From NCBI GenBank assembly GCA_964035545.1, contig OZ037767.1, positions 2,236,680-2,300,679 of the forward strand: 64,000 nucleotides of DNA. The letters are read 5' to 3'. Numbering within the stretch: position 1 is the stretch's first letter; the number at the start of each line of letters is the position of its first letter. The notes under the pieces are model-generated. The model was given only the letters and a program-made list of their open reading frames with translations, had not been told where the DNA came from and did no database searches. Origin of the DNA: Bugula neritina. Its lineage: Eukaryota > Bryozoa > Gymnolaemata > Cheilostomatida > Bugulidae. The position numbers and the translations under genes are program-made. This document shows positions 1,863 to 24,441 of the stretch, piece by piece.

Positions 1863-4800
1863 ATGAAAAAATTATTTGTCACCTTTTTCTGTTGGTGGTG
1901 CTTTTTTGACCTTGGCATTAGTAACTTTAAAGGGGACTTGTCAGGTCTAAGAGAAACTTGCAAATGGCGTTCAAAACTTTTAGAGGTAAGTTTAAACAGT
2001 AACATTTTGCTTTAAGGTACATGAATTAAATAAGTATTTACAATTGAGTCATTTTATTTAAAATTTATTCATTTATGTTTTGTGAAAGATTGACAGCAAT
2101 ACTGTCCTAAGAGAGGTGACGAGGATAAACGTCAGAAACCCTAAATTTAGAATGAATCCTGAGTTGAGATTAGCTAAACTGCTGCCTTTCCAGTATTTTT
2201 CCCTCAAGGTAATGATCTACTTTTACCGTTTGTTTTTATTGAAACACTGTGGAATAAAAATCATCTATCAAAAAAATTGATTTTTTTTTTCTGTCGATGA
2301 AGTAGTAATACATTGTGTAAATGTTGCTGTTACAGAACGCCCTGGTGGGATACAGGACTATGATACAACTGAGTATTTACTGTAATGATGTTTACTCTCC
2401 TGAAGCTGGACTTTTAGTTGCGCAAAAGGATATTGCTATTTACATTCAAGTCACCAATTCTCATGTAACCCAAGAAGGGATACATGTTGGTAAGAATAAA
2501 TATTGTTTCCTGTTTATATAGCACTTTTCATGCAACTAAAATTTAATTCTTATAAAATCACTTTTTAGTATAATGCTTTGGATCAATTGGCGCTCAACAG
2601 AAAAAAAATGTAAATAGGAGAAAAATGACTCTAATTTAGTGAATGCTGGTTCCAGCAAAGCTATACATCGGTGCTATCTGATACCTAATCACTTGTGTGA
2701 TCCCAGTAGAATAATTATCTTTTCTATTATTAGATGGCATGACAACCCTTTTTATATGACGTCTTACAATAAGAAAACATACTTTTTAATTTCTGTGTAA
2801 TTTGACGTGTTGCTGTTTGGGTGATTTGATCTTTAAACAGCTGTATACTACACTGTCTAGTACAATATACAAATGTTGTCTTATTATTACATCACTTTAA
2901 AACTTTTAGGTTCAATAGAGAGCTCATTTGAGACCCACATGACGGACATTTCAGTGCTTAATGGATCCGTGAAACCATGTAAAACAGTCTGTGAACCTGT
3001 TTGGGTTGCTCCTTTACCTGTCAATGAAAAGAATCTCTTTCTTGAGATTTCTGTAGAAGAGTATCCACAGGCACTTTTCTCTACTTCGTACAGGTTTTTA
3101 CGTGCATAGTATTTGCATAAGTCATAATAATACACATATTTCTATTACCTTGCATAACTTATGTTATTCATAATTTACATTTCTATCGCTATATAACAGT
3201 AAGTTAGAACACACAGTGATTACTTTTTCATGTCTTTATATGATTCTGTTTCAGAGAGTACTTCATTCTCAACCCATTCTGTGGGAGTTTCTGTAGCTTT
3301 GGTAGTCTCGTTACATTTGATGCTGAAGTTGCTGCCGGTCTCGTCAATAAAGGTGGGAGTATTACAGCAGCACTTATATAGTCAGCTTTTTGGCATTTTA
3401 TATACTTTCAGTCATCTTCTATTTATAGTGGAAATGCATATAAAAATAATTGCTGTATATTAGAGGTTTTATTATACATAATATTGTCTATTCAACACAT
3501 TGGATGTAGAGTTATCCTCTCTCTATGTGTCACATTCTGTCTACAGACATGTATACTATATTTAGTACCACCTTCTCACCATTTCTCACCATTTCTCACC
3601 GCAACCTTCTTAAACAGTGAGGGTAATGAGATTACACACGCACATACATACACATACACACTTACTCACGCACACAGGCATGCGCATACATACACATACA
3701 CACTCACGCACACAGGCATGCGCATACACTTACTCCCGCACACAGGCATGCGCATACACTCATATTATCATAATGTTACATGTTCTATAGTATATCAAAA
3801 TAAACTTATTATCTGAAGGTTATCAAAGATTTCCCATGATATCAAGCTTTGCAGTGATGGATATTTTAACCATAGATACAGACACAGTGCTTTTCAGTGA
3901 TAATCAATGGAGCTCAGTCTATGCTATCAAAGTGAGGGGCCCAACAATTCTCTGCATTATACTTTTGTTGTCATTGATAATTTACCTAGATAATCAGAAT
4001 TACACAGTTATTAGATTTATGAAATTCAAAATACTCTGGATTAAAACTCTCTGTTTCATCTTTTCTACTTTAGTTGTTTTTAATGGTGTAGCTCAAAAGT
4101 GTATATATTTTGTTAAAGTAATTTGTTGGGTTATTCAACTTTATTCAATCTCTGCTTAAACCTGGGGTTTCCCATAAACTGTTATAGCCGTCTTTCAAAG
4201 ACATATCAGTAGAAAGGGACGTGTGCAATGACACTGGTGAACCCCCTACAGATATCATCATTCATTCAGCTGTAACAGAACATTCTAGAGTATTATTTGC
4301 TACTAACGTAAGTATAATTCTACCTCAACTCTGCACAGTGTACATGCATCTATCTGTTGGTTTGTTAAGGAGACTAAAGTAAGACCATTTTAATTAGTTC
4401 ATAGGCAGACAACCCCTTATGGTGGTTGAATAAACACATATATTATTTTACACTGCCAATTTATTGAATACTAACAGACGTTTTTCCATGTTATACTGAG
4501 TTTTTTTAACTTGAAAGTAAGAAACTTGAATCCCTATTCAGGTTGGACTGGTTGAGATGAAGATTGGTGTGGGGTACAGAGTGTCTTTTCTTGTAATATT
4601 AGAAGAATGTGTAGACAAACTCAAGGTTGATAGCAGGTACTACAACTCAGAGTCCCGCCTTTTGGTGTTTGCTAAGCACACAGTCTACTATCCGGTACAA
4701 GGTTAGTTTAGTTCATCTTATGTATTTGATTGGTTATAAGTCTTTCCGAGGTATTCAAGAATGCAGAAATCACAGTCTTGTTGTCTTACTACAGTCTTTT

Positions 4801-24441: not shown

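Follow-up and report, generated by a model that had tools for sequence, protein, structure and literature searches.

What does the large gene at the start of this Bugula neritina locus encode, and what would a membrane protein do with a SEC14-like module at its cytoplasmic end? An earlier note, made from the stretch of 64,000 nucleotides analysed here (the window), had proposed a 48-exon gene that closes in frame and encodes a type I membrane protein of an undescribed receptor family, with a CRAL-TRIO and GOLD tail and a second intact copy nearby. An independent rebuild of the gene, in which a dynamic program on codon usage and splice sites (44 exons) was followed by hand placement (48 exons), returned the same structure: 48 exons at 1863–24441 on the plus strand, 7248 bases, 2415 codons plus a stop, closed in frame, with GT...AG boundaries in 47/47 introns. 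The remaining two frames of the joined exons contain 196 and 227 stops, so the model is not a chance reading. The features of gene A are as follows.

1863..24441, plus strand: gene A, CATSPERG with a helical, CRAL-TRIO and GOLD tail; 48 exons, 2415 residues
1863..11239, plus strand: exons 1–22, N-terminus and ectodomain, residues 1–1070; signal peptide judged by eye
8623..9387, plus strand: CATSPERG_Ig-like, residues 756–865; Pfam PF22851, 3.2e-14
9791..11359, plus strand: CATSPERG_C, residues 902–1083; Pfam PF22846, 9.2e-24, and mouse CatSper gamma, 2.3e-29
11228..11365, plus strand: membrane segment, residues 1067–1085, split by intron 22; hydropathy and end of the mouse CATSPERG match
11539..21005, plus strand: exons 24–40, helical region, residues 1117–1994; repeats of ~50 residues in the first ~600 residues
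21176..22776, plus strand: exons 41–45, CRAL-TRIO with N-terminal helices, SEC14L-like; profile matches
23595..24441, plus strand: exons 46–48, GOLD-like domain; Watersipora copy aligned to SEC14L4, below the Pfam cut-off

What kind of membrane protein is this? Both CATSPERG families listed above pass the Pfam cut-off, and the PDB matches to the ectodomain at E ≤1 are two distinct sequences, both mouse CatSper gamma (7eeb_F, 2.3e-29; 9ubw_F, 5.6e-29). Residues 752–1082 of gene A align in register with residues 746–1082 of the mouse protein, into the membrane segment. Residues 25–760 equal the mouse N-terminal part in length, without a sequence match to its N-terminal domain or beta-propeller; no Pfam family passes the cut-off and no PDB chain is matched in this part. 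Judged by these similarities, the gene A protein is a CatSper gamma subunit (CATSPERG), and almost certainly one with a fused tail. An undescribed receptor family is therefore rejected, since the ectodomain and membrane segment belong to CATSPERG by both Pfam and mouse CatSper gamma. The type I layout is upheld: the ectodomain is followed by the membrane segment (mean hydropathy 2.04) and then by basic residues. The proposed signal peptide fared less evenly; it was recognised only by eye, and the N-terminus of C is the sole one, among those of gene A and its three copies (B, C and D, described below), to exceed the hydropathy threshold.

The known CATSPERG proteins make clear where the similarity ends. 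Mouse CATSPERG (7eeb chain F, 9ubw chain F) shares the Ig-like and C-terminal domains, the membrane segment, and the order and length of the ectodomain. Unlike gene A, it is a chain of 1145 residues with ~60 residues after the match, whereas gene A continues for ~1,330 residues after the membrane segment; the mouse protein lacks both the helical region and the CRAL-TRIO-GOLD end. A chytrid fungus, Cladochytrium replicatum, also encodes a CATSPERG (P0002). It resembles gene A in CATSPERG_C (7.8e-24) but has only 935 residues, no CRAL-TRIO match at E ≤1, and no tail.

Is the protein encoded by an intact gene that has been maintained by selection? The second copy, gene B, is inverted relative to gene A and convergent with it. 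Placement of its exons against gene A gave the following features.

26004..45477, minus strand: gene B, inverted convergent copy of gene A; 48 exons, 2412 residues
36631..45477, minus strand: exons 1–22, N-terminus and ectodomain
36411..36727, minus strand: exons 22–23, membrane segment (exon placement and hydropathy)
29236..36334, minus strand: exons 24–40, helical region
27193..29065, minus strand: exons 41–45, CRAL-TRIO
26004..26921, minus strand: exons 46–48, GOLD-like

Forty-six of the 48 exons of gene B were placed at once, with the lengths of their counterparts in A and intact splice signals; a closer alignment located the remaining two. Compared with A, exon 24 lacks two codons, and the total lengths imply that exon 15 lacks one. 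There is no internal stop, so gene B is a second intact copy with the architecture of A, as had been proposed. The two proteins are 91.3% identical (dN/dS 0.23). The exons are 93% identical over 7228 bases and the introns 83% over 10762 aligned bases, introns longer than 1200 bases being left out. Synonymous divergence between A and B is uneven: dS is 0.37 over residues 1–300, 0.06 over CRAL-TRIO, and 0 over the 50 codons 1071–1120, as if gene conversion had levelled parts of the inverted pair.

A CATSPERG_C search of the whole genome (215.8 Mb in 295 contigs) found four places: A, B and two more on the same contig at a distance of ~8 Mb. The latter are genes C (C3:10587256-10565048, minus strand, 2414 residues) and D (C3:10563057-10536673, minus strand, 2413 residues), a complete tandem pair. 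Each has 48/48 exons with intact splice signals, is open throughout, and differs in length by multiples of three. Between the A/B and C/D pairs, dN/dS is 0.161–0.187 for the whole protein, 0.183–0.235 for the ectodomain, 0.145–0.159 for the helical region, 0.141–0.194 for GOLD and 0.090–0.124 for CRAL-TRIO, the lowest of the tail; the short stretch of 56 codons around the membrane segment gives noisier values (0.156–0.360). These values indicate that the tail is under purifying selection and has been kept as protein. A pseudogene is rejected given four open copies with 48/48 exons each and low dN/dS, and an assembly chimera is rejected given four copies in the genome and a similar protein in a second bryozoan, Watersipora subatra.

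That second protein bears directly on whether CATSPERG and the tail belong to one gene. A protein database search with the tail alone, which scored the 7993 candidates that shared most words, returned one protein: the uncharacterized P0001 of W. subatra, a cheilostome bryozoan and the sole close relative returned. P0001 has 1437 residues, covers the tail in full at 44% identity, and contains CATSPERG_C (1.5e-7) and CRAL_TRIO (6.9e-8) in a single protein. It is like gene A in having CATSPERG_C, the membrane segment, the helical region, CRAL_TRIO and a GOLD-like end, and the alignment continues through the membrane segment. It is unlike gene A in that its model begins inside CATSPERG_C and it has three extra residues at the junction corresponding to intron 23. 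The Ensembl annotation of Watersipora, from which P0001 may derive, was built mainly from transcriptomic alignments, according to the available part of PMC12902671.

The alternative is that the models wrongly join an ordinary CATSPERG gene to a neighbouring, separate gene for a SEC14-like helical protein. Read-through of intron 23 in A and B would end a short-tailed protein after 12 more residues. However, this intron is only 79, 76, 114 and 76 bp long in A, B, C and D, and the read-through ends differ among the copies (after 12, 12, 23 and 31 residues, respectively), while the reading phase across exons 23–25 is kept in all four. Moreover, a genome search with the tail gave at least 48 matches, 48/48 of them inside the four genes, and no free-standing tail gene was seen (37 of the 100 first-look candidates were scored). 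Together with the single joined protein annotated in Watersipora, this makes two wrongly joined genes very improbable. The fusion of CATSPERG with the tail is well supported by these sequence comparisons, and the claim of one continuous gene stands, with a short isoform by retention of intron 23 being possible. How widely is the fusion distributed? Two further protein searches found only Watersipora and, in one of them, the chytrid. They missed the known mouse CATSPERG, so the database or the short-word filter overlooks relatives, and the distribution given here speaks for bryozoans only.

What does the tail consist of? After the membrane segment and the basic stretch comes a helical region of ~880 residues, which had been described as ~875 residues of helical repeats. 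The helical region stands, but repeats were found only in roughly its first 600 residues. There, a period of ~50 residues is apparent: 13 offsets exceed the highest score obtained in 20 column shuffles (26), the best of them reaching 78, and 12 fall close to multiples of 50 (the exception is 368). Folded alone, exon 32 gives three helices (pLDDT 84, the best of five models with means from 84 to 55), and exon 29 is helical but poor (pLDDT 67). The single-exon fold had no Foldseek match at E ≤0.001. No Pfam family passes the cut-off in the helical region, and its one PDB match is by chance. Assignment to a known repeat family is rejected, DMP12 (0.0051) and P63C (0.0065) each being below cut-off and found in one of three members. 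HEAT_EZ appears in one of three members at 0.23, and neither a sequence nor a fold match to Armadillo/HEAT was found in Pfam, PDB or the single-exon Foldseek search.

The number of membrane segments is a related question. A single segment had been proposed earlier. The segment at residues 1067–1085 lies where the mouse protein has it, but a second hydrophobic stretch, weaker in A (1873–1891, 1.74), also exceeds the hydropathy threshold in all five proteins (A, B, C, D and P0001). In P0001 it even scores 1.78 versus 1.76 for the membrane segment. A third stretch, near residue 1958, occurs in C and D. Both stretches lie inside the helical region and we take them to be buried helices; a second membrane pass there is possible.

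The last ~400 residues of the gene A protein are SEC14L-like. A four-sequence profile (Watersipora, A, C and D) finds SEC14L4 (7.3e-7) and SEC14L2 (1.2e-5); the matched profile positions, 40–274, correspond to CRAL-TRIO and the N-terminal helices only, without GOLD. Pfam CRAL_TRIO is found in 4/4 profile members at E ≤5, with a best value of 1.2e-8 (Watersipora). The Watersipora copy alone matches SEC14L4 at 6.2e-11, across CRAL-TRIO and most of GOLD. Single Bugula sequences give much less: the whole gene A protein matches CRAL_TRIO_2 at only 0.018, and its C-terminus alone reaches SFH5 with 0.49, a poorer value than that of a chance match (0.046). An exon-by-exon genome search with PF00650 found 12 places, none of them within the 64-kb window. 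The alignments differed in membership: A2 comprised four of five sequences (B left out), A3 three of five (B and D left out), and A4 two of four (B and D left out). The profile searches thus bear out a CRAL-TRIO domain at the C-terminus, and its presence together with the N-terminal helices is well supported by sequence similarity. The GOLD half of the proposal is weaker. The assignment depends chiefly on the Watersipora sequence aligned to SEC14L4, while the Pfam values for EMP24_GP25L (0.025 and 0.077, in one of four members) are below cut-off. As a separate observation, small contigs carry the best CRAL_TRIO matches in the genome (loci L001–L004, on C171, C77, C235 and C139); the matched stretches contain 3 to 6 stop codons each, which may reflect introns, decay or foreign DNA.

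SEC14L proteins are cytosolic and lipid-binding. SEC14L2, SEC14L3 and SEC14L4 (PDB 1o6u, 4uyb and 4tlg) have a CRAL-TRIO domain with its N-terminal helices followed by GOLD, an order that gene A shares with its GOLD-like end. Unlike the gene A module, which terminates a membrane protein, they are separate proteins of ~400 residues. In all four Bugula copies and in Watersipora the module is the end of the CATSPERG protein rather than a separate protein, so it is appropriate to say that the protein contains a SEC14L-like module, not that it is a SEC14L. By its similarity to these proteins, the module somewhat more likely than not binds a lipid. It could instead be a pure protein scaffold, in which CRAL-TRIO has lost its ligand and holds only the arm or a partner. 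The CRAL-TRIO of A–D is indeed divergent compared with that of Watersipora, as the Pfam values given above illustrate (0.018 for CRAL_TRIO_2 in A versus 6.9e-8 for CRAL_TRIO in P0001). Against loss of the ligand, CRAL-TRIO is the part of the tail with the lowest dN/dS, which signifies constraint but is not proof of ligand binding. A scaffold without a ligand is rather unlikely, and lipid binding is the reading followed below.

Does the animal have a CatSper channel for this subunit to join? CATSPERB_C is found at two places (contig C7) and CATSPERD-E_C at two places in the genome, all over cut-off. In a search for the pore, 119 Ion_trans matches were obtained, and 30 loci were kept and scanned for the pore motif. 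One of the 30, L045 (G000:C7:12672260-12672898), has the motif TQDGW, which is presumably CatSper-like, in an open frame of a voltage-gated channel. CatSper4 is among the best PDB matches of this frame over a single stretch (7.7e-45); Cav3 and several Nav chains are higher in summed score. L045 is a candidate pore subunit, and a CatSper channel is likely present in this animal, to go by these gene matches. All four CATSPERG_C matches in the genome lie within the tailed genes, meaning that any gamma subunit here would carry the tail. There is good reason to expect, from its sequence family, that the gene product is part of the CatSper channel in sperm. The protein might instead have left CatSper for another role, such as that of a receptor on ciliated cells of a different type, and having four copies does leave room for new roles. 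This is improbable, because any gamma subunit must be among the four fused genes and because exons of CATSPERB and CATSPERD/E have been kept in the genome.

What might the tail do for the channel? Judging from the architecture, control of CatSper in these animals may involve a built-in scaffold or a membrane lipid. In the sperm flagellum, the ectodomain would join the remaining subunits of CatSper much as its mammalian counterpart does. The helical region would form a cytoplasmic arm under the channel, linking or organising channels, and may thereby take over work done by separate cytosolic proteins in mammals. The CRAL-TRIO-GOLD module would bind a membrane lipid, and the local lipid could then affect how the channel is delivered, positioned or gated. 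This reading as a whole, a gamma subunit with a cytoplasmic arm and a lipid-binding module that act in lipid-dependent delivery, position or gating, is favoured with some reserve. Its parts differ in strength. By analogy with mouse proteins, the tail is somewhat more likely than not to act as a scaffold. That the lipid state alters channel activity is a more tentative proposal.

There is a precedent for such cytosolic components. In mouse, ARMH2 (helical repeats) and C2CD6 (a C2 domain) are cytosolic CatSper proteins that organise the channel (available parts of PMC12638846 and PMC9205950). ARMH2, EFCAB9 and CATSPER zeta constitute a subcomplex that helps to sustain linear arrays and adjusts the sensitivity to pH and calcium (available part of PMC12638846). 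ARMH2 and C2CD6 are like the gene A tail in placing helical repeats or a membrane-type domain on the inner side of CatSper, and an analogous role is proposed here; they are unlike it in being separate proteins, and no sequence relation to the tail was found. As to lipid control of CatSper, it has been proposed that the lipid 2-AG inhibits the channel until ABHD2 removes it, but human sperm do not require the activity of ABHD2 (both from the available part of PMC13429874).

An alternative role, which is possible but considerably less probable than the combined reading, is that the tail is mainly a delivery module: CRAL-TRIO-GOLD and the arm would bring the assembled channel from the Golgi to the membrane of the flagellum, a task in which C2CD6 presumably assists in mammals, and would have no part in gating. 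GOLD domains are known from secretory-pathway proteins, which would suit this role. Likewise, the cytosolic C2-domain protein C2CD6 reportedly promotes CatSper targeting and organisation (available parts of PMC12638846 and PMC9205950). The present data do not, however, separate delivery from scaffolding or gating. The preferred reading, in which arm and lipid-binding module act together under the channel, includes delivery as one of its outcomes. A broader and speculative extension treats the gene as a “Rosetta stone” fusion: a SEC14-like lipid module and a helical arm would belong under gamma, CatSper would be controlled by an inner-side lipid, and in other animals the function would fall to a separate SEC14L-like or helical protein. 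If this doubtful extension were true, such a separate protein would be a candidate for the cytosolic density that was left unassigned when mammalian CatSper was studied in situ in 2022.

What is new here? The ectodomain family was already known; the novelty is a cytoplasmic tail architecture of ~1,300 residues on a known channel subunit. The layout as a whole does appear to be undescribed, as claimed at the outset. Neither CATSPERG together with CRAL-TRIO nor CatSper together with a bryozoan was found in the literature searched, which covered few subscription papers. Studies that mention both CatSper and Sec14 are, by their titles, on other subjects, and a wider search on the architecture and fusion of this gene in invertebrates gave nothing on CATSPERG among the best matches listed. 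The available part of a comparative CatSper paper (PMC6660944) has no occurrence of bryozoa or CRAL. There are several implications. First, a single chain with an arm and a SEC14-like module makes inner-side lipid action on CatSper testable. Second, the fused subunit makes it testable which cytosolic proteins do the equivalent work in other animals. Third, for annotators, an “uncharacterized” bryozoan protein is, by its matches, a CatSper subunit.

From 46500 to 64000 of the window no gene was identified: six longer open frames matched no Pfam family at 0.01, and several longer open frames fall in tandem repeats. In intron 36 of gene A, inverted arms of 164 bases, 94% alike, bound ~580 bases (18926–19506) that are absent from gene B at the corresponding position. 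This insert is like a mobile element that was inserted after the duplication. A repeat of ~350 bases has two copies at 17641–18345 (intron 35 of A) and one at 28369–28722, at another place in B; it ends in the near-palindromic GCGTATTTTCGCATGCGAAA and is read as a short mobile element. Tandem arrays at 5913–6509, 40893–41275, 13298–14129 and 34698–34857 occupy matching introns of the two genes and differ in length between the copies, with 13.8 versus 8.9 copies of a 43-base unit and 26 versus 5 copies of a 32-base unit.
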